From the NCBI GenBank assembly GCA_001443495.1, contig LDXR01000003.1:77781-141780 (forward strand): 64,000 bases of DNA, read 5' to 3'. Source of the stretch: a candidate division NC10 bacterium CSP1-5 (lineage in GTDB: Bacteria > Methylomirabilota > Methylomirabilia > Methylomirabilales > CSP1-5). Of this stretch, positions 38,987 to 57,959 are shown piece by piece. The position numbers were made by a program, and so were the translations under genes. Within the stretch, counting starts at the first letter, position 1. Every line of letters begins with the position of its first letter. The notes beneath the pieces were generated by a model. It searched no databases. It was given only the letters and a program-made list of their open reading frames with translations, and had not been told where the DNA came from.

Positions 38987-39823
38987 TTAGAAGTCTTGCG
39001 GAAACTCCGACAGTTCGCCAATCCGCTTCAAGGAAAGGACCCCTTCGTAGCGCGCCCCTTTGATGAACCAGGTGGGGTAGACCTTGATGGCGAGTTGTTG
39101 GCAGCGGGCGGGGTCCGCACCCGGGATCTTGGGATCGCACTCGACATAGGGGATGAGATCCGCCGCGGGCCCGAACCGGGCCTTCTGTTCGCCGCAGGCG
39201 GGTCACCAATAGGCGCCGTACATGACGGCACCGCTTTTGGCCAGATGGCGAGCCAGCGCTTCCTGATACGCGGCGCTCCCCCCCGGGCCAGCGGCATAGT
39301 ACCCGGCCCCCACGAGGACGGTGGCCACGGCCGCCACGGTCCCGAGCGTGGCGACCCGGGACGGACGGACGGCGGACCTCCGCCCCGGCACCGACCGTCG
39401 CCGGGAGAGGAGGACCGCGAGGAGGACCAAGATGATCAGCGCGGACATGACGCAGTACCCGCAGATGGCGCGGATCTCGAACAGCTCGAGATACGTGAGA
39501 TAGGCGGAGAAGGACACCCCCACGACCGACAGGAGGAAGGCGGCCAGCCATCGCCCCGTATCAAGTCCCAAGAGGGCCAGCGCGCCGATGCCTGCATACA
39601 CGAGGGCGCCCCAGAGAGCTGTCGGCACCCCGAAGAAGACGCCATACCGGCTGGCCTGGACGATGTCGCAGCCGCTTCCGGCCTCACAGAAGAGGGGACT
39701 CTCGGCGCCGAGCTTTGTCACCGTGAGATAGCCGGCGAGGAGGAATCCGAGAGCGGCCAGCCCCGCGACCACCCAGTCGCGCTGCACCGCCTCGGATGTC
39801 TTTTGTCGTTGAGACCGCGCCAC
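38987..39823 (-). CDS. VKOR-thioredoxin fusion with in-frame UGA at the active-site cysteine (predicted selenoprotein)
   Basis: 278 codons from GTG 39823 (GGAGG upstream) to TAA 38989-38987, with an internal TGA at 39205-39203 (codon 207). Before it is a complete vitamin-K-epoxide-reductase domain: four to five helices, C46/C52 loop pair, CGYC at 121-124. After it the frame continues as the fused thioredoxin domain: GAYW-U-PACGEQKARFG, then IPYVECDPK, KVYPTWFIKGARYEGV. In ordinary fusions of this family the position is Cys (WCPHC). A hairpin with apical GGUUC lies 20 bases after the UGA. Bacterial VKOR fusions reoxidise DsbA-like disulfide catalysts; here it closes a multiheme operon, where it may serve thiol chemistry for heme attachment. 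The alternative is a truncated pseudogene. Confidence 0.85.
39160..39201 (-). promoter_or_regulatory. Candidate bacterial SECIS element (VKOR-thioredoxin)
   Basis: In the mRNA, 20 bases after the UGA, GGCCC-GGUUC-GGGCC forms five G-C pairs (39182-39168). The apical loop starts with G 25 bases after the UGA, inside the 16-37 base range and loop rule known for bacterial SECIS. Outer pairing CCGCC with GGCGG, plus GCGG with CCGC, extends the stem to 39160-39201 with an internal loop. Confidence 0.6.
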
Positions 39824-39841
39824 GTCCTCCGCTCCTTTCCT

Positions 39842-47158: not shown

Positions 47159-48418
47159 TCATCGGCGCTCGAGCTGGCGGATCTTGAATACGAGGCCGCC
47201 GATCAAGGCCAGGATAATCACCACCGAGACCGCCAGACCCTTTCGACGGAACTGCAGTTCCTCCAAGGCCCGCACCCCGCGCTCGTACGCCTTGGCGCTG
47301 ATCTGGAGCCCCGGCTCGATCTCCCGCTTGACCGCCTCGATGGTGAAGGCGTGCATCGTCGCCCGGGCCTTCACCAGCGCGTTCTTGGCCTCGTTCAGCT
47401 CGAACTGCGCCTGGCTCACCTCCATCCCGGCGTGCTCCGCCTTCTGGAGGATCGTGTGCGCCTTGTCGTATTCGGCTCGAAGGGTGTCGATCTGCTCACG
47501 CATCGCCGCGGCCGTCTTCCCCCCTCGGTCCTCCGAAGAGTGACAACGGGTGCAGACCGCCGCCGCCCCAAGCCCCAGCATCTCGTCGCCCGCCTCGGTG
47601 ACCTCGTGGTTCTCGTGGCATGTCGCGCACCCGGGGCTGCCCATCTGGGCAAAGACCTTGGCATGCCTACTCTTGGCAAAGGACTCGGCCATCACAGTGT
47701 GACACTGGCCACAGACGTTCCCCACCCAGGAGACGCCGGGCGGCGCCGCCCCGTGATTGCCGTGACAGTCGTTACACGTGGGGGCCGAGAGGTCACCCTT
47801 CACCGACATCATCTTCCAGTGGACGCTCCGCCGGTACTTCTCGAGCTGGTCGGTCGGGACGGGATATCCCTTCATATACTTCGCGTCGCCGTGACAGGCA
47901 CCACACGTCTCCGCCACCTTGAGAGGGTGGACGCTCGATCGGGGATCCGACGGCGGCCTGATCGTGTGGGCCCGATGGCAACTGGTGCAGGTCGCCACCT
48001 TGGTGTCCCCCGCCTCCAGGAGGCGCCGCCCGTGCCCCGACGTGCGATACTCGACCACCTGGTCGACCCGCAACGCCGGATTGTACTGTCTCATGAAGCG
48101 CGCGTCGGAGTGACAGCGGCCGCAGACCTGCACTACCTGCTGGCGGCCCGGCTTGCCGATGTATCCCTTGGCAGGATCCATCGCCTCCATCCCGGCTGCC
48201 TTCGGGTCTCCTCCGTGGCACGCCGTGCAGCCGAATCCCTTGGCGGCGTGTATGTCCTCCTGGAACTCCTTGGCCGGCGTCACCAGTCGATCGTCGCCGA
48301 TTTCCAGGTGACAGGCAACGCAGCCCTCGGGCGGCGCCTGAGCCTCGGCAGGCATCGGCCAGGCCACCACCGCCAGGAAGCCGAGCGTGAGCAGCGAGCC
48401 CGTACCCCCCACCCCCAT
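47159..48418 (-). CDS. Nine-heme cytochrome with coiled coil and C-terminal membrane anchor
   Basis: 419 residues. Signal peptide, then nine CXXCH sites (CVACH, CTACH, CGRCH, CTSCH, CGACH, CNDCH, CGQCH, CATCH, CTRCH), a long helical segment after the last heme (residues 290-390) and a final transmembrane helix (LAVSVVIILALIGGLVF). Start ATG overlaps the upstream stop (TGATG). The arrangement resembles membrane-tethered octaheme-type cytochromes; the enzymatic role is unknown. It sits directly before the Rieske-cytochrome b pair. Confidence 0.86.
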   Translation of the reverse strand: MGVGGTGSLLTLGFLAVVAWPMPAEAQAPPEGCVACHLEIGDDRLVTPAKEFQEDIHAAKGFGCTACHGGDPKAAGMEAMDPAKGYIGKPGRQQVVQVCGRCHSDARFMRQYNPALRVDQVVEYRTSGHGRRLLEAGDTKVATCTSCHRAHTIRPPSDPRSSVHPLKVAETCGACHGDAKYMKGYPVPTDQLEKYRRSVHWKMMSVKGDLSAPTCNDCHGNHGAAPPGVSWVGNVCGQCHTVMAESFAKSRHAKVFAQMGSPGCATCHENHEVTEAGDEMLGLGAAAVCTRCHSSEDRGGKTAAAMREQIDTLRAEYDKAHTILQKAEHAGMEVSQAQFELNEAKNALVKARATMHAFTIEAVKREIEPGLQISAKAYERGVRALEELQFRRKGLAVSVVIILALIGGLVFKIRQLERR

Positions 48419-49608
48419 CAGCGGCTCCTTCTCAGCTCTTGCAGATAGGCGACCAGGTCGGCCATCTCGTCAGGGCGGAACTGGGGCCAGGCCATCTTCT
48501 GGGGCTGGGCCACCTCTTCCATGATCAAGGCGTGGTTCCACATCGCCGCGATGGCGGCAGCCGGCGACGGAAAACGCGCGGCTCGGGCCAGGTCCCCCGC
48601 CCCTTTTCCCCCCTTCCCACGGACCGGATGACAACCGAGACATCCCTTGGCGGTTACCAACTGCTCTCCCCGTCGGGCATCACCCGGTTCCGCGAAATAC
48701 TGGACGGAGTAGAGATACGCCACAATGTCCGCCATCTCCTGGGGCTGAAGCTGCGGCACCGCGATCCCCTTGGCCTTCATCGTCGCAATCATCGCCGGGA
48801 TCTTGTTCCACATCGCCGCGGCAAACTCGGTCAAGCTCTTGTGCAAACCCCGCTCGGCCAGGTCCGGTCCTACCGTACCGCCCTCCGCACGGACGGTGTG
48901 GCATCCCTGACACCCCCTCTCCACGAAAAGCCTGTGCCCCTCACTCGCGCGGCCCGGCAGGACGTAGAGCGGCTCCTCGACGGGTGCCGGTGAGGCCGCC
49001 TTAAGATAGGCGATGAGGTCGATCAGCTCCGTCGCGGTGAAGGTGGGGCGGGTGATCCCCCGGGCGCGCATCGCCTCGGCCATGGCCGGCCCGTGGTTCC
49101 ACATCGCCGCCGCGACGAAGATCGGCGAGCCGTACTGTTTGAGGAAATCGAGGTTCGGGCCGACGACGCCCCCGGCCCCACCCACCTGGTGGCAGACGAC
49201 GCACCGCTTTTCAGTGAAGAGCTTCTCACCGGCCTGAGGATTGCCCGGCGGATCGAAGTAGTTGAGGGTATACAGGAATGCGATGAGGTGGCCGGTGTCG
49301 CGCGTATCGAGGTGCGGGCGGGTGACCCCGAGTTTCTTCATCCGCGCCGCCATGCGGGGAAAGTGATTCCACATGGCCGCAGCCAGATCGTAGAACGACC
49401 GGGGGCGCGGGATGCGGCCGAGGTCCGGCCCGATCTTGCCCCCCACCCCGTTGATCGCGTGACACCTTACGCAACCCTTCGCGCCGAAAATTTGCGAGCC
49501 GGCGACGGGGTCCTGCGTCGGGCTAAAGAGCGCGTCGTTTGCGGCGAGCACAGGAGAGGAAAAGAGCAAGAACAAAGCGGCGACAACCCAGTGCACGGGC
49601 CGGGACAT
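48418..49608 (-). CDS. Periplasmic tetraheme c-type cytochrome (WNHxPxM repeats), paralogue C
   Basis: 396 residues, signal peptide, four heme units (CVRCH, CVVCH, CQGCH, CLGCH), each with AAAMWNHxPxM or a variant. Full-length collinear with paralogue B (28242-29477), including identical stretches such as VGPNLDFLKQYGSPIFVAAA split by few changes. ATG 49608 has GGAGGAG upstream. First gene of the bc/multiheme operon, in the same leading position that paralogue B has in the ACIII-like operon. Confidence 0.88.
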   Translation of the reverse strand: MSRPVHWVVAALFLLFSSPVLAANDALFSPTQDPVAGSQIFGAKGCVRCHAINGVGGKIGPDLGRIPRPRSFYDLAAAMWNHFPRMAARMKKLGVTRPHLDTRDTGHLIAFLYTLNYFDPPGNPQAGEKLFTEKRCVVCHQVGGAGGVVGPNLDFLKQYGSPIFVAAAMWNHGPAMAEAMRARGITRPTFTATELIDLIAYLKAASPAPVEEPLYVLPGRASEGHRLFVERGCQGCHTVRAEGGTVGPDLAERGLHKSLTEFAAAMWNKIPAMIATMKAKGIAVPQLQPQEMADIVAYLYSVQYFAEPGDARRGEQLVTAKGCLGCHPVRGKGGKGAGDLARAARFPSPAAAIAAMWNHALIMEEVAQPQKMAWPQFRPDEMADLVAYLQELRRSR

Positions 49609-49675
49609 CAACTCCTCCCACAGAAAGTGGAGGACCGCCGGTATCTGAGCGGCGCGCCTGATCCGACAGGGACGT

Positions 49676-49704
49676 ATCGTAGCGCGATAGAATTGATTTC
49701 GCAA
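49676..49704 (-). promoter_or_regulatory. Possible sigma-70 promoter of the bc/multiheme operon
   Basis: Minus strand TTGCGA, 17-base spacer, TACGAT, about 70 bases before the tetraheme start. Four of six matches in each box. Confidence 0.4.
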
Positions 49705-49755: not shown

Positions 49756-50787
49756 CTATTCGAACTTCAGCTTGTACACGCCGGGGCTGTAGGCGTGGCG
49801 CACCTGGGCGTTGTCGAAGACCGCCACACCAAAGGCGTACTCCTTCTTCAGATCGCCGAACTGCACGTCGAACTCGCTCCCCGTCTGCAGCTTCCGCGCG
49901 ATCTCGAGGGTCCAGATGCCGTCCTTCCAGACCGCTTGTGTCGGTACCTCGCCGCGATCTCCCGTGAACGGGGCCACGATGATCCCGGGCACCTCGTCAC
50001 CGGCCTTATACTTGGCGCTGTCAAATGGCTCCTTTTCGCCCTCCAGGAGCCAGTACGGCGGAGCTGGCTTGTTCCCTTTCAGCGCAAACTGGGGTCCTTT
50101 CTTGTCTACCGCCACGTTGTCCGCGTACCCGCCGCCGGTCTTCGGATCGCTCTTGCGGCCGGCTTCCTTGGCCTTCTCGGCATCGTACCGCGTGTTGTCC
50201 ACGTACTGGTCATCAGTCTGGCCGACGGAGCCGGTGCGCACGCCCTTCCAGTGCCACATGTCGAGCCGCTCTCCGGCCTTGGCCGTGTACTTGTTCCCGT
50301 ACGGTTTCCCCTCGCCGGTGTGGCATGCGGCGAGGCATCCCTTCTTCTCGAAATCTGGGAAACTGATGTTCCAGATCCAACCGAACTTGTCCTCGTAGTA
50401 GAGATTATTGTCGCCTCCCTTGTCGTCCGGATCCTTCAGCTTCGTCCAAGACCCATCGGCCTGTTTCTGCCACGGTGAGCGCCGAAAGCTCTGCGTCGGG
50501 TCGGCATACTGGACGAGGAAGTACGCCGTGTCGGCGGTGTAGAGCGCCCGAAGGGTGACCTCGGTAGTTCCCTTCGGCAGGTTCCGACCGCCGACCACCT
50601 TGACCGCGAGCGGCGCCGCCTGCTTCCAGAAATCCTCCATCACGCCGTCGAGGGTCGGCGCCGTGGTAACCTTCTTGGCGATGAGGACGTTCTTCTCCTG
50701 GGCCTGTGGCCGGCTGATGAACTGCCCAACACCCACACCGAGGGCCAGCAGGAGCACCGGAAGGGTCCGCTTCCGCCAACGTTTCAT
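49756..50787 (-). CDS. Ethylbenzene-dehydrogenase-related heme-binding protein with CX3CH motif
   Basis: 343 residues with signal peptide (MKRWRKRTLPVLLLALGVGVGQ). The body matches the EB_dh/DMSO-reductase gamma heme-binding fold (PTLDGVMEDFWKQAAPLAVKV, VTLRALYTADTAYFLVQYAD, DGIWTLEIARKLQTG). It carries CLAACHTGEG, a CX3CH motif that could attach heme c. Related proteins bind heme b through Met/Lys. Last gene of the operon that begins with the PCYCGC selenoprotein, 51 bases after the NosR/NapH-like gene. Confidence 0.83.
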   Translation of the reverse strand: MKRWRKRTLPVLLLALGVGVGQFISRPQAQEKNVLIAKKVTTAPTLDGVMEDFWKQAAPLAVKVVGGRNLPKGTTEVTLRALYTADTAYFLVQYADPTQSFRRSPWQKQADGSWTKLKDPDDKGGDNNLYYEDKFGWIWNISFPDFEKKGCLAACHTGEGKPYGNKYTAKAGERLDMWHWKGVRTGSVGQTDDQYVDNTRYDAEKAKEAGRKSDPKTGGGYADNVAVDKKGPQFALKGNKPAPPYWLLEGEKEPFDSAKYKAGDEVPGIIVAPFTGDRGEVPTQAVWKDGIWTLEIARKLQTGSEFDVQFGDLKKEYAFGVAVFDNAQVRHAYSPGVYKLKFE

Positions 50788-50838: not shown

Positions 50839-52779
50839 CTACATGCCGTGACGCATTCCCATCGGCTGGTTCAAGAGGACGATGCCGACCACGGTGAAGA
50901 GCAGGGCGAGCGCCGCCAGCGGCAACAGCGCGCGGCTGGCCGTTCGCGGGTCCGGGTACACGCGGAGCGCTAGCAGGTGCCCGGCGACCAGAGACACGAC
51001 GAAAAACCCGACGAGCAAGCCCATCTGAAGTACCCCAACGACTGCCTCCGAGGCCAAGGGAAGGATTTGCCAGTCGGGCGTGCCGAGCGAGAAGGGCGTA
51101 TAGATCGCCACCGCCCGCTGCACGACGGGGACAATTCCGCCTCCCTCGATGAGCAGATGGCCCACGTTGTGGGCGAGATGCATAGCGAGCCCGATCGGCA
51201 CGAACATGTAGCCGAAGACGACGAAGGTTCGCCGTGTGCCCAGCCCCTTGTCTCCCGCCATCCGGTCCGACAGGGCGGCCCCGCCGAGGACCATGAGAGG
51301 CACCGCCGCGAGGGCGCCGCCGAGGAGGATCACCGACTCGACGATACTCAGGTAGGTGACCGGCTTAACGGTGCTGCGGACGAAGGACGGGAGCAACCGG
51401 GACAGCGCCTCGATCCAGCCTGGCCAGGTGCTGAGCATACCGGCGGTCACCAGGAGCGTGAGCCCTACCAGCATCACCGCCAGATATGACTCGTCCAGCG
51501 CCCGGCGCCCCGACGCCCAGAGGTCCTTGCCGAAGGCGCGGAGCCGAAGTAACAGATTATCATGCCCGCAGCCCTTGACGCACTCCACACAGAAGGTACA
51601 GTACGTGTTCCGGTCCATGGTGGCGGGAAACTCGAACATCGGGCAGCCGCGGGCCTGGGCGCTCCCCCGGTAACAGCTCTTTTCCCGGTCCGCGGCGCAA
51701 ACCGACCGGTCCCTGGTGCGAAGCTCGACGGGCGCCGTCATGGAGTAAATCCCGATGAGTCCGCCGATGGGACAGAGATAACGGCAGAAGCTCCGCCGCT
51801 CGTAAAAGATCCCGATGGCGACCGCCAGGCCCGCGAAGAAGATGACGATCCAGGCCGTCACCGACGGCGACCGGACCACTCCGAGCTGCTCGTCCGCCCA
51901 CGTCAGGAGGACGAACATCCCCGTCGCCCACCAGATGTTCCGGAACGGCTTGGGGAGGCGGCGGACCGGCGCCGCGATCCGCGACGCCCACTCGTTGAGC
52001 GCGCCAAATGGACAAGCGAGACACCACGCACGCCCCACCAGGAAGAAGGTGAAGATGATCCCCGCCCACCAGATGGTCCACGTGAGCTTGGTCGCGACGT
52101 TCACGCCGCCCTCCTGGACGTCGGAGAGCCCGAGGAAGATCACGATCACCATCAAGAGGAGGAGCGGAATCTGCATCGACGGCTGAAGGGCGGGCGCGGT
52201 GAGCAGGCGTCGAAGCCACGGAATCGCCAGGAGGTTCAGGGGCTCCGCCACCCGTCCGACCCTGGCCTTCAGGATGACGAGGTACAGTCCGAGAACGGTC
52301 ATACCCGCCAGGACCGCCACGAACGCCCAGCCGACCCCGCCCATGCCCGGCGCCCGCCCCACGGCCACCTGGAAGTCGACGAGGAGGGGTGGATCGAATT
52401 GTTCGCCGTCAAGCTCGGCGATCGCCACGCGAACCTGGTGCACGCCCCTCTTCGAGGGCGTGAACGGCACGGCATAGCTGCCGGCCCAGGTCACCTCAGG
52501 CGCCAACCGGAAATCGTCATGATTCCCTGACGGAGCCACACTGATCAGGACCCGCCCACCCGAAACCGGCTTGAGCGGAGAATTCTGAATGATCTTGGCC
52601 ACGACCTGGCTCTCTTGACCGGGGGCGAGGGGGCTCGGCTGACTCAAGAGCTCGACCTGGTAACCCTGGATCGAGACCAGGCGTACCGCTCCGATCGGCT
52701 GGGCCCCCCCATGCTCGCCATGGGCGAAGACCGTGGTGGGGAGCAAGAGAAAGAATGCCGCCGCGAGGCGAGTGATCAC
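50839..52779 (-). CDS. NosR/NapH-like polyferredoxin membrane protein with N-terminal periplasmic domain
   Basis: 646 residues from GTG 52779. Signal and an Ig-like periplasmic domain (residues 25-140), then transmembrane helices with paired cytoplasmic cysteine motifs CLACPFGALNEW and CRYLCPIGGLIG characteristic of NapH/NosR/CcoG-type proteins, a ferredoxin motif CTFCVECVKGCGHDN, and six further helices with histidines (LAMHLAHNVGHLL). It probably moves electrons from quinol or cytoplasmic donors to the periplasm. Its start overlaps the stop of the PCYCGC gene by four bases (GTGA) only if the UGA at 52880 is read through. Confidence 0.85.
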   Translation of the reverse strand: MITRLAAAFFLLLPTTVFAHGEHGGAQPIGAVRLVSIQGYQVELLSQPSPLAPGQESQVVAKIIQNSPLKPVSGGRVLISVAPSGNHDDFRLAPEVTWAGSYAVPFTPSKRGVHQVRVAIAELDGEQFDPPLLVDFQVAVGRAPGMGGVGWAFVAVLAGMTVLGLYLVILKARVGRVAEPLNLLAIPWLRRLLTAPALQPSMQIPLLLLMVIVIFLGLSDVQEGGVNVATKLTWTIWWAGIIFTFFLVGRAWCLACPFGALNEWASRIAAPVRRLPKPFRNIWWATGMFVLLTWADEQLGVVRSPSVTAWIVIFFAGLAVAIGIFYERRSFCRYLCPIGGLIGIYSMTAPVELRTRDRSVCAADREKSCYRGSAQARGCPMFEFPATMDRNTYCTFCVECVKGCGHDNLLLRLRAFGKDLWASGRRALDESYLAVMLVGLTLLVTAGMLSTWPGWIEALSRLLPSFVRSTVKPVTYLSIVESVILLGGALAAVPLMVLGGAALSDRMAGDKGLGTRRTFVVFGYMFVPIGLAMHLAHNVGHLLIEGGGIVPVVQRAVAIYTPFSLGTPDWQILPLASEAVVGVLQMGLLVGFFVVSLVAGHLLALRVYPDPRTASRALLPLAALALLFTVVGIVLLNQPMGMRHGM

Positions 52780-53258
52780 CGGCCGAACCTCCGGTCGATC
52801 GCGCGGCGGATTTCAGAAACCTCGTATCCCGCCTTTACCATCCGAGACGCATCCAGCGCCTCATCTAAACAGATGTCTCACGTCGCCGCGTGGCCGTCCG
52901 TGTAGCAGGAGAGGAGACTCTTGTGCCCCAGGTGCTTGTCGCAGTAGCAGTAACAGTACAGCTGATCCAAGACATCGGGGATTTCCCGGGCCACCTGGTG
53001 GGCCAGGGTGGCCTTGCCGACGAACCGCGCCGGATCGAGGGTCGGCCGCGTCTCTCGCCTCGCGACCGCCGGAACTGCCGGGGCCGAGGACAGCCCCGAC
53101 GATACCGCGGGAGGGTCGGGTGTGCCCACCGGTGCCGGGCTTTGCCCGAGCCAGGCCACCACAAAGACTGTCCCCACAATCCCGATGAGAGCACCGATCA
53201 GCCATGTCCCGTATCCTTTGTGCTTCGATGGCGCGACCCGATTTCGATGCTTCCCCAT
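52776..53258 (-). CDS. PCYCGC-motif protein with in-frame UGA at conserved cysteine (predicted selenoprotein)
   Basis: 160 residues including the UGA codon at 52880-52878 (position 127). N-terminal membrane anchor (residues 17-38), linker, then the family core LYCYCYCDKHLGHKSLLSCY (the PCYCGC region) and DGHAAT-U-DICLDEALDASR, ending EIRRAIDRRFGR. In PCYCGC proteins this position is the first Cys of a conserved CxxC (HGTKCGVC in Firmicutes members). Reading through restores the usual C-terminus and brings the stop into a GTGA overlap with the next gene. A 7-bp hairpin with loop UGGAU follows at SECIS spacing. AAGGAGG precedes ATG 53258. Likely a periplasmic metal-binding or thiol-redox protein; function of the family is poorly known. 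Confidence 0.87.
52844..52862 (-). promoter_or_regulatory. Candidate bacterial SECIS element (PCYCGC protein)
   Basis: mRNA GAGGCGC-UGGAU-GCGUCUC: seven pairs (one G-U) and a 5-base loop with G at its second position, apical loop 22 bases after the UGA. Meets the bacterial SECIS rules for stem, loop and distance. Confidence 0.65.
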
Positions 53259-53541: not shown

Positions 53542-54021
53542 CTACCGGTATTCGAAGGTGAACAGGGCCTGCGCCGGGGTGTTCCAGACATCCGCCAGAT
53601 GCTTATAACGGGCGATGTCCGGCGGCTGGACATCGACCAGAATGGAATAGGTTCCCGGGTGCGGCAGGGTGATGTTGGCCCCGTAGTGGAGCCACTCTCC
53701 GATCAACGGGGCGAGGCCTACGCTAAACTCCCGCTTTGTGGTCTGGTCAGAGATGGTCGCCTTGACGTTGAGGTACGGGATGTAGATCGCCTTTCGCACG
53801 TCATAAACCCGCACGTCGAGGTGATGGGTGGCCGACGCCGCCGGCTTGTGATGGGGGTCCAGCTTCGGATCAATAAGCTCTTGAGGCCCCCAGATATACA
53901 GGGTGATCTCAAGATTCCCCACAGTCCTCATCCCGATGCGCGCCCGCTCACCCTGCGCCCACACAGGCCGGGGGAGCAGGAGCAGAAGGACAAAGGTTGT
54001 ACTCAGCATCCACCGCTGCAT
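53542..54021 (-). CDS. P19/Tp34-like periplasmic metal-binding protein
   Basis: 159 residues, signal peptide MQRWMLSTTFVLLLLLPRPVWAQ. The mature domain has THHLDVRVYDVRKAIYIPYLNVKATI and a HYGANITLPHPGTYSILVDV strand pair resembling the P19/Tp34 family, which binds Cu/Fe in periplasmic iron uptake. No FTR1-type permease is adjacent, so a role in copper or iron supply to the neighbouring respiratory proteins is inference. GGAGG 9 bases upstream supports ATG 54021. A perfect sigma-54 element lies 50-65 bases ahead. Confidence 0.72.
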   Translation of the reverse strand: MQRWMLSTTFVLLLLLPRPVWAQGERARIGMRTVGNLEITLYIWGPQELIDPKLDPHHKPAASATHHLDVRVYDVRKAIYIPYLNVKATISDQTTKREFSVGLAPLIGEWLHYGANITLPHPGTYSILVDVQPPDIARYKHLADVWNTPAQALFTFEYR

Positions 54022-54070
54022 CACAAGAGACCTCCGAAGCTCACGAACCCCTGTTTCACCGTATGCGTTG

Positions 54071-54086
54071 AGCAAGGCGGGTGCCA
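54071..54086 (-). promoter_or_regulatory. Sigma-54 (-24/-12) promoter of the P19-like gene
   Basis: Minus strand TGGCAC-CCGCC-TTGCT, a perfect match to the consensus. Confidence 0.75.
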
Positions 54087-54184
54087 CCAACCAAGCGACA
54101 CCACTCCCTGAAGGTAAGTGATGAATTTGCTGGCCAAAGGCCGACAGGGAGGTGGAACGCTGTGTGGAGACCCTTCTGAGAACC

Positions 54185-54200
54185 GAGACAGGCGTGCCCC
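54185..54200. promoter_or_regulatory. Proximal enhancer-like dyad (P19-like)
   Basis: GAGACA-GGCG-TGCCCC, centre about 108 bp upstream of the -24 box. Confidence 0.55.
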
Positions 54201-54269
54201 AGAAGAGCCGGGTGACAGATGCGCACATAGTGCATGAAAAGTACTAACAGAAGAGAGAATCTGGGGGGT

Positions 54270-55232: not shown

Positions 55233-57959
55233 TCAGTCCGCCGGGGTCACCCGGACGGCGCAGACCTTATACTCCGGGATGCGAGACGAGGGGTCCAACG
55301 CGGCGTTCGTCAAGACGTTGGCCGCCGCCTCGGCGTAGTGAAACGAGAGGAAGACCGATCCCGGGGGCGTGCGTTCTGTCACGGCCGCCCGCGCCACGAC
55401 GGTCCCGCGACGGGAGGAGACCGCAACCCGTCTTCCCGTTTCGATGCCCAGGGCCGAGGCATCCCCGGGATGAATCTCGAGGAGCGCTTCGGGGGCCAAC
55501 AGATTGACACCGGGGATCCGGCCGGTCATGGAGCGGGTATGCCACTGCTCGAGCACCCGTCCCGTATTCAAAAGCAGTGGATACTCGGAGTCGGGGAGTT
55601 CGGCCGCCTGCCTGAACGAGACAGGATGGAACTTCCCAAGCCCCCGAGTGAACCGAGTCCGATGGAGGAGTGGGGTTCCGGGATGATCGGGAGTCCAAGA
55701 GGGCCACTGGATTCCGGCTGGCCCCAGCCGCTCAGGGAGGATTCCGCGGTAGATCGGGGTCTCCTCGGCGATGACCCTGGTGATCGGCGCGGTCTCCGGA
55801 AACATCAGGGGATAGCCGAGGCGGGTCGAGAGATCACAGAGGATCGTCCAGTCGCGACGTGCCTGCCCTGGTGGCGGCAGGACGGGGGTCTGCCACTGGA
55901 CGCGCCGCTCGGTGTTGGTCGTGGTGCCGTCTTTCTCGAAGTGGCTGGTCGCGGGCAAGATCACGTCGGCCATGGCGGCCGTCTCGGTCAAGAAGATCTC
56001 TTGACTCACCATGAACTCGAGGCGCGAGAGGGCCTCCCGGACATGGTTCAGATCAGGATCGCTCACCATCGGATTCTCGCCCATGAGATACATCCCCTTG
56101 AGCGATCCGTGTGAGGCGGCATTAACCATCTCCACGACGGTAAGGCCCGGCGCCTGAGGCAGGCGGCGGCCCCATCGTTGCTCCAGCTCCGCCCTCACCG
56201 CGTCATCACTCACGGTGCGGTAACCGGAGAAGACATCCGGGAGGACCCCCACATCGGAGGCCCCCTGGACGTTATTTTGGCCTCGGAGCGGGTTCACCCC
56301 GGTCGCCGGCCGACCGATGTGCCCCGTGAGCAGAGCGAGGTTACAGATGGCGAGGACGTTCTCGGTCCCTGTCGTGTGCTGTGTCATTCCCATGCCGTGA
56401 AACATCATCGCCGACTTGGCAGGTGCATACAGGCGGGCTGCCCGCCGGAGGTCCGCGGCCGGAACGCCGCTCAGCTCCTCGACCCGGTCCGGGGTGTATG
56501 CGGCAAGCGAGGCTTTGAACGCCTCAAAACCCTCGGTCCGCCCGACGATGAACGCTTCATTATGCAGCCCCTCTTCGAGGATCACATGGGCGAGGCCGTT
56601 GAGGACCGCCACGTCGGTCCCCCCCCGCGGTCTCAGATGCACATCGGCCAAGAGCGACAGCTCCGTCCGCCTCGGATCCATCACGATGAGCCTCGCCGTT
56701 CCCGCCCTGACCGCCCGTTTGATCGCCCCCGCAATGACAGGGTGGTTCTCAGAGGTGTTGTGCCCAAGGACAAAGATGACGTCGGCCGCGGGGATTTCCT
56801 GCGGCGCATTGGTCATCGCGCCCTCCCCGAAGGCCATCTCCATCGCGGAGACGCTGGAGGAGTGGCAGAGGCGGGCGCAGTGGTCGATGTTGTTCGTCCC
56901 GAGGGCAGCGCGCGCGAACCGCTGCAGGACGTAATTGTCCTCGTTGGTGCACTTGGCGCTTCCCAGGATCCCTAACGCGTTGGAACCGTATCTTGCGATG
57001 AGGGTTCGAAGCCGTGATGCGACCAGATCCAGCGCCTCTTCCCACGAGGCCTCCCGGAAGAGTCCGCGCGGATCGACGCCTTCAGGCGGGACGCGTAACA
57101 GACCCTCACGACGGATGAGAGGAGTGGTGAGGCGATCCGGGTGCGTTGCATATTCGAAGCCGTAGCGTCCTTTGACGCAGAGGGAGCCCCGGTTGGCCGG
57201 ACCGTCCTCGGATCCCGTCACCCAGACGATCCGATCGCGCTGCGTGTACACATTCATGGCGCATCCGACGCCGCAGTACGGACAGATCGTGCGCGTCGCC
57301 TTCACCTCCGCCTCTGGGACGCGCAGGCTCGCGGCGTCGAAGAGGGCCCCGGTCGGGCAGACGGAGACGCACGCCCCGCAGGCGACGCAGCCAGCCTGCT
57401 TCATGTCCCGATCGAAGGCGGTCGCGACGTGGGCGACGGCACCGCGGCCGACCATGGCCAACACGTCGCAGATCGCGATCTCCCGGCAGGCTTGCTCGCA
57501 TCGCCCGCAGCCGATGCACTTGCCCACGTCGATCCCGATCAGCGGATGGCGATCGTCAATCCGGTTCGGTCTGAAGCCGCTCGGCATCCAGGCCTTCTCG
57601 ATCCGGTATTCCGCGATGTGCTCGGTCAACTCGCACCGGCCCAGGATATCGCCTGTGGCCGCCCGTTCCGGATACTCAGACCAGTGAAGCTCCAAGATCA
57701 CGCGACGCGACCGCTGCACTCGGTCGCTGTCGGTCCAGACGTGCATGCCCGCCTCCACCGGGGTGACGCAGGCGGGCAGGAGCCTTCCCCACCCATCCAC
57801 TTCCACCACGCAGAGCCGGCACTTCCCCGAGGGGGTGAGGCGGGGGTCGTAGCAGAGGGTCGGGACCTCGATTTCGCGGGAACGGGCCGCCTCAAGCAGA
57901 GTGGTCCCTTGGGAAACGGTCGAGGGTATCCCGTTCATGCTGAAGATGATCTCGGGCAT
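55233..57959 (-). CDS. fdhA: NAD-dependent formate dehydrogenase, alpha subunit (Cys type)
   Basis: 908 residues. N-terminal [2Fe-2S] ferredoxin domain (CYDPRLTPSGKCRLC), NuoG-like His/Cys cluster region, two [4Fe-4S] motifs (CIGCGRCEQAC and CVACGACVSVCP), then the molybdopterin domain beginning CPYCGVGCAMNVY with GSLCVKGRYG. The Mo/W ligand position DHCARLCHS has Cys, not selenocysteine. Start ATG directly abuts the stop of the NuoEF-like gene. With that partner it oxidises formate to CO2 with NAD+ in the cytoplasm, or reduces CO2. Confidence 0.92.
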   Translation of the reverse strand: MPEIIFSMNGIPSTVSQGTTLLEAARSREIEVPTLCYDPRLTPSGKCRLCVVEVDGWGRLLPACVTPVEAGMHVWTDSDRVQRSRRVILELHWSEYPERAATGDILGRCELTEHIAEYRIEKAWMPSGFRPNRIDDRHPLIGIDVGKCIGCGRCEQACREIAICDVLAMVGRGAVAHVATAFDRDMKQAGCVACGACVSVCPTGALFDAASLRVPEAEVKATRTICPYCGVGCAMNVYTQRDRIVWVTGSEDGPANRGSLCVKGRYGFEYATHPDRLTTPLIRREGLLRVPPEGVDPRGLFREASWEEALDLVASRLRTLIARYGSNALGILGSAKCTNEDNYVLQRFARAALGTNNIDHCARLCHSSSVSAMEMAFGEGAMTNAPQEIPAADVIFVLGHNTSENHPVIAGAIKRAVRAGTARLIVMDPRRTELSLLADVHLRPRGGTDVAVLNGLAHVILEEGLHNEAFIVGRTEGFEAFKASLAAYTPDRVEELSGVPAADLRRAARLYAPAKSAMMFHGMGMTQHTTGTENVLAICNLALLTGHIGRPATGVNPLRGQNNVQGASDVGVLPDVFSGYRTVSDDAVRAELEQRWGRRLPQAPGLTVVEMVNAASHGSLKGMYLMGENPMVSDPDLNHVREALSRLEFMVSQEIFLTETAAMADVILPATSHFEKDGTTTNTERRVQWQTPVLPPPGQARRDWTILCDLSTRLGYPLMFPETAPITRVIAEETPIYRGILPERLGPAGIQWPSWTPDHPGTPLLHRTRFTRGLGKFHPVSFRQAAELPDSEYPLLLNTGRVLEQWHTRSMTGRIPGVNLLAPEALLEIHPGDASALGIETGRRVAVSSRRGTVVARAAVTERTPPGSVFLSFHYAEAAANVLTNAALDPSSRIPEYKVCAVRVTPAD

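Follow-up and report, generated by a model that had tools for sequence, protein, structure and literature searches.

A CYCXC-family (OS_HP4) gene with an in-frame UGA that very probably encodes selenocysteine in a Methylomirabilota genome

The 64,000-nucleotide stretch of DNA analysed here (the window) comes from a candidate division NC10 bacterium of the Methylomirabilota, whose genome of 2.77 Mb is 99.7% complete. On its minus strand lies a small gene of the CYCXC family, followed by genes for a membrane protein, a haem-binding protein, and two cytochromes (Table 1). The gene begins with ATG at 53258, downstream of GGAAGGAGGAAAGGGT (AAGGAGG-like ribosome-binding site), and its frame meets a TGA directly after HAAT. 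Beyond this codon, 33 sense codons (DICLDEALDASR...RRAIDRRFGR) run to a second TGA at 52778–52776, which shares four bases (GTGA) with the GTG start codon (52779) of the next gene. A preliminary description of this DNA had taken the first TGA for selenocysteine (Sec) and the codons after it for the C terminus of the family, and had noted that read-through brings the stop into a four-base overlap with the next gene; what it reported of the frame and its end is there in the letters.

Read through, the product has an N-terminal hydrophobic helix (residues 18–36) predicted to be a membrane anchor, then a proline/alanine-rich linker, and then a conserved domain with YCYCYC (101–106), H112, C118, H123, U127, and C130. 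The invariant residues are six Cys/Sec and two His, and U127 opens a UxxC motif, UDIC (127–130). In an AlphaFold2 model built from 34 sequences, residues 71–160 come out well (block means of 75–98) and earlier residues poorly.

Table 1. Features of the CYCXC locus and the genes that follow it (window coordinates)
Feature	Position	Strand	Description
CYCXC-family selenoprotein CDS (predicted)	52776..53258	minus	160 aa with one in-frame UGA, plus TGA stop
Hydrophobic helix	53151..53207	minus	residues 18-36; helix in AlphaFold2 model, pLDDT there about 50-55
CYCYC motif	52941..52955	minus	residues 102-106, three invariant Cys
In-frame TGA	52880-52878	minus	residue 127 (predicted Sec), position 1 of UxxC; TGY (Cys) in homologues
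Bacterial SECIS-like hairpin	52843..52863	minus	8-bp stem UGAGGCGC/GCGUCUCG, apical loop UGGAU
Next gene, 4-base overlap	50839..52779	minus	NapH-like ferredoxin membrane protein, 646 aa (PF12801)
EB_dh-type haem-binding protein	49756..50787	minus	343 aa, PF09459, one CxxxCH
c-type cytochrome	48418..49704	minus	four CxxCH
Multihaem cytochrome c	47159..48418	minus	nine CxxCH

How is the in-frame UGA read? Against NCBIfam NF041379 ("CYCXC family (seleno)protein"; the model is named OS_HP4_CYCXC), the read-through protein scores 131.3 bits, the cut-off being 90; the match takes in profile positions 1–89 of 90 and lies on both sides of the UGA. With NF041379/OS_HP4 it shares, besides this full-length match, the UxxC, the CYCXC core, and the small size. 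A search of the translation with U for UGA against Pfam PF13798 (PCYCGC), proposed earlier as a check, gave 35.9 bits, above the gathering cut-off of 25; Cys-containing members of that family carry Cys at the Sec position of the window protein, which differs from them in having YCYCYC where they have PCYCGC. A lipobox has been reported in a Bacillales PCYCGC member (PMC13068155), whereas the window protein has a plain hydrophobic anchor. Two reviews name OS_HP4 among the known bacterial UxxC selenoproteins, with credit to Zhang and Gladyshev 2007 (PMC9312934; PMC13188914). Compared with OS_HP4 of the Olavius symbiont, the host is different, the window coming from a Methylomirabilota/Rokubacteria relative, and the gene neighborhood probably differs too.

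Within the phylum, NF041379 matches were found in 70 of 95 genomes, and a TGA lies inside every match among those listed (two in one match), bar one short fragment that covers profile positions 31–56 only and falls short of the Sec site. All 30 phylum loci read have TGA at the aligned site; they form two subfamilies, YCYCxCDK...HAATUDIC and PCYCGC...HADTUxMC. A scan of the genomes of 84,980 species placed the nearest relatives of the gene in Rokubacteria and Methylomirabilota and added members from Deltaproteobacteria, Desulfobacterales, an unclassified bacterium, Nitrospirae, and Acidobacteria. Outside the phylum, the Sec site is occupied by Cys codons at six loci (L062, L063, L076, L077, L080, and L081)—TGT in two from Desulfatiglandales and TGC in four from Acidobacteria—by NGA in the Nitrospirae record, and by TGA at the remaining readable loci. 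The UGA thus stands, as had been proposed, at the first Cys of the CxxC. Cys/Sec exchange at an aligned site is classical evidence for Sec, and at the level of sequence comparison we regard this exchange, along with the phylum-wide conservation, as the decisive support for a Sec codon.

Could the UGA simply be a stop? The standard code would have it so: the table 11 list of open reading frames ends the frame there, which would leave a protein of 126 residues followed by a pseudogene remnant or untranslated DNA. However, the 33 codons beyond match the family profile and are conserved at the protein level in the phylum and outside it, the Cys homologues continue straight past the site, and the read-through frame stops exactly four bases into the next gene. 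In 14 genes, pN/pS was 0.46 downstream of the UGA vs. 0.24 upstream; these values carry no correction for multiple hits, and the SECIS depresses the synonymous sites. The downstream segment is thus protein-coding and under purifying selection, yet less constrained than the segment before it. A true stop is therefore highly improbable, and the conservation past the UGA that the preliminary description called for is borne out. The contigs are draft and metagenome-derived, so a sequencing or assembly error might have turned a Cys codon into TGA, but an identical TGA in dozens of separately assembled genomes makes such an error vanishingly improbable.

Does the genome have the means to insert Sec? 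It encodes selA (contig C7:96783–97880; SelA score 502 bits), selB (C2:33776–35665; SelB, 379 bits), and selD (C13:29194–30120, within L132, G000:C13:29100–30300; SelD, 404 bits). A tRNA-Sec with anticodon UCA, called by two programs, lies about 5 kb from selB (C2:28880–28970). The absence of sel genes, which would have spoken against Sec, is thus not what we found; selD is itself a selenoprotein gene, with an in-frame TGA in HGAGUACKI. The mere presence of an in-frame UGA would also fit its reassignment throughout the genome or its suppression as Trp, but the ordinary stop of this same gene is UGA, most long genes in the window have no internal UGA, the homologous residue is Cys rather than Trp, and the sel genes are complete; we give reassignment next to no credence. 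Elsewhere in the window, the formate dehydrogenase alpha subunit (55233–57959, minus strand) has an open frame without TGA and reads CARLCHSSSV, and in this Sec-using genome it appears to be the Cys form.

The remaining element expected of a bacterial Sec codon is a SECIS hairpin. The one pointed out earlier, GAGGCGC-UGGAU-GCGUCUC, is indeed there. Its stem can be lengthened to 8 bp (−11.6 kcal/mol), and 22 nt separate the UGA from the apical loop. The published bSECIS model calls for a loop of 3–9 nt, a stem of 4–16 bp, and a G in the first two loop positions, 16–37 nt after the UGA (PMC13188914), and the window hairpin satisfies it (loop UGGAU with G second, 8 bp, 22 nt). When the 20 codons concerned were recoded synonymously 5,000 times, an equally good hairpin arose in 0.38% of cases. 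Of 62 open frames in the window that end in TGA, 4.8% are followed by a hairpin of −8 kcal/mol or better, and 5% of 1,500 random TGAs are followed by one of −9.0 kcal/mol or better. Because chance controls reach similar strength at several percent, one hairpin taken singly is modest evidence for Sec.

Comparison across homologues adds to this. Among 21 aligned relatives, standard pairs fill 83% of stem cells, vs. 73% when shuffled and 18–54% with slid partners, and both-sided changes occur in 12 stem cells against 6.0 expected, counts that include shared descent. One stem pair switches from GC to UA in 10 of the 21 relatives and another from AU to UA in 2; the two subfamilies differ in the former switch, and both keep the loop start UGGA. 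Synonymous choices do not vary: all 30 genes use GCG for the second Ala and CTG for Leu, and at one codon in the 3′ arm all 18 genes that have Ser encode it with the rare TCT, which makes up 8% of Ser codons elsewhere. In Cys homologues the best hairpin reaches −4.1 kcal/mol, the others being −1.4 or weaker or missing. This apparent contrast with TGA members is supportive only, because within the PCYCGC subfamily several members with TGA have stems of −4.5 to −5.2 kcal/mol, hardly above the best Cys homologue. No SECIS family of Rfam matched the region, a result that says little because, to our knowledge, its SECIS models leave out most bacterial elements.

From these sequence comparisons, the gene very probably encodes a CYCXC (OS_HP4, PF13798) selenoprotein in which the UGA is read as Sec127, and we infer that selenium is actually incorporated at this residue. 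SelA and SelD would make Sec-tRNA(Sec), which SelB would deliver; by recognizing the hairpin just after the UGA, SelB would cause that codon to be decoded as Sec127, and the frame would then run for 33 codons to the real stop. Such a protein is expected in this lineage, since its closest relatives lie in Rokubacteria and Methylomirabilota, a Methylomirabilota genome with 63 predicted selenoproteins has been reported (PMC13188914), and the family is already catalogued.

A second UGA-for-Cys case in the window had also been proposed, and it looks right. A VKOR-thioredoxin fusion gene (38987–39841, minus strand) has a TGA at 39205–39203, at the first Cys of its thioredoxin motif (GAYWUPAC), with a GGCCCGGUUCGGGCC hairpin 26 nt further on. 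The TGA is kept in a near full-length match in twenty genomes of the phylum, the window's included, and three genomes (L128, L129, and L130) have Cys there (GAYWCPHC and similar). This fusion may be a less documented selenoprotein, since "VKOR" is absent from the text of a 2026 selenoproteome review.

In what company is the CYCXC gene found? The window operon encodes 13 CxxCH motifs, and its order—CYCXC gene, NapH-like, EB_dh-type, four-CxxCH cytochrome, nine-CxxCH cytochrome—is mostly kept in Rokubacteria. Upstream lies a gene for a PF10634 "Fe2+ transport protein" (53542–54228, minus strand), which may point to metal handling. At the Methylomirabilis-type and deltaproteobacterial loci inspected, the Rokubacteria-type neighbors are absent beside the family, so the operon does not define the function of the family as a whole; the neighbors there include a P-type metal ATPase, a trypsin-like protease, an M16 peptidase, and a penicillin-binding protein, with no common theme among the neighborhoods inspected. 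In a Desulfatiglandales bin, the Cys-form gene stands near genes for a TlpA-like redoxin, NfeD, and a CcmF/cytochrome c assembly protein. The TlpA/ResA-like redoxin gene beside the Cys-form gene has a TGA at its own active site (ATWUAWCKK or ATWUTWCKK; L062 731–1500 and L063 1500–2072), and the predicted Sec of this locus sits in the redoxin, not in the CYCXC protein. Relatives of the window protein carry N-terminal anchors or signal-like sequences. PCYCGC-subfamily members at Methylomirabilis-type loci (L072, L078, and similar) have twin-arginine-like N termini (DRRLALRILAGG, SRRAILVGV) with no simple anchor, which suggests Tat export.

The product probably works as a thiol/selenol redox protein outside the cytoplasm, tethered to the membrane. 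Its single N-terminal helix would anchor it, with the redox domain outside the cytoplasm, and Sec127 and Cys130 of the UxxC might pair as a selenenylsulfide near the CYCXC cysteines, making it a thiol/selenol oxidoreductase. It could then serve the extracytoplasmic electron-transfer chain of the downstream genes, keeping thiols reduced or aiding haem or metal insertion during cytochrome assembly. Service to this chain or to cytochrome assembly, in this broad form, is a guess from the neighborhood that we offer tentatively.

A more specific proposal is that the protein is a CcmH-like apocytochrome c thiol reductase with Sec. Among natural proteins, the fold search of the PDB ranks two CcmH domains first (Foldseek E 1.7 and 1.9; VIA Z 5.4 over 67 residues with rmsd 3.4, and Z 5.2 over 68 with rmsd 3.6), the UxxC lands on the CcmH CxxC in a low-threshold hhalign alignment, and both the assembly genes of the Desulfatiglandales locus and the CxxCH motifs of the window operon would suit such a role. 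Like the N-terminal domain of CcmH (PDB 2kw0 and 2hl7), the window protein would be a small helical extracytoplasmic domain with a CxxC-type motif, but it has no significant sequence similarity to it and adds the CYCXC and the His/Cys cluster. The Foldseek, VIA, and hhalign scores are all nonsignificant, Z values near 5 being common for small helical domains, and an ordinary CcmH is encoded elsewhere in the genome. When the CYCXC profile was compared with CcmH sequences taken from 30 of the phylum's genomes, hhalign gave a probability of 5.8% and a score of 20.7 vs. up to 19.2 in 100 shuffles; being only slightly above all the shuffles, this is no ground for claiming CYCXC–CcmH homology. The window protein had no Pfam match to PF03918 (CcmH) at E up to 10, and a sequence search of solved structures with the family profile returned nothing relevant. 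We consider the CcmH-like role quite unlikely.

Alternatively, the Cys/His cluster may bind metal or haem outside the cytoplasm rather than exchange thiols. The invariance of six Cys/Sec and two His would agree with this, as would the upstream "Fe2+ transport protein" gene, the heavy-metal ATPase neighbor in L072, and the Bacillales PCYCGC lipoprotein gene, which adjoins a gene for an Fe3+ binding protein (PMC13068155). The exchange of Sec and Cys in a UxxC, however, is typical of redox sites, and metal or haem binding seems rather unlikely. Our best guess remains a thiol/selenol redox protein for extracytoplasmic cytochrome assembly, with metal handling as the main alternative.

The window gene adds one sound, expected member to an already catalogued selenoprotein family. 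A standard-code gene call drops the last 34 residues of its product, the active-site Sec included. It is a very doubtful idea that the CYCXC/PCYCGC selenoproteins are remote counterparts of CcmH, or of a comparable assembly factor, that use Sec and in Rokubacteria serve solely to mature the operon's multihaem cytochromes; if true, a family so far entered only as "hypothetical protein OS_HP4" would have its first assigned function. For this family we add phylum-wide SECIS evidence with covariation, and the conserved operon with multihaem cytochromes offers a concrete lead to its function.
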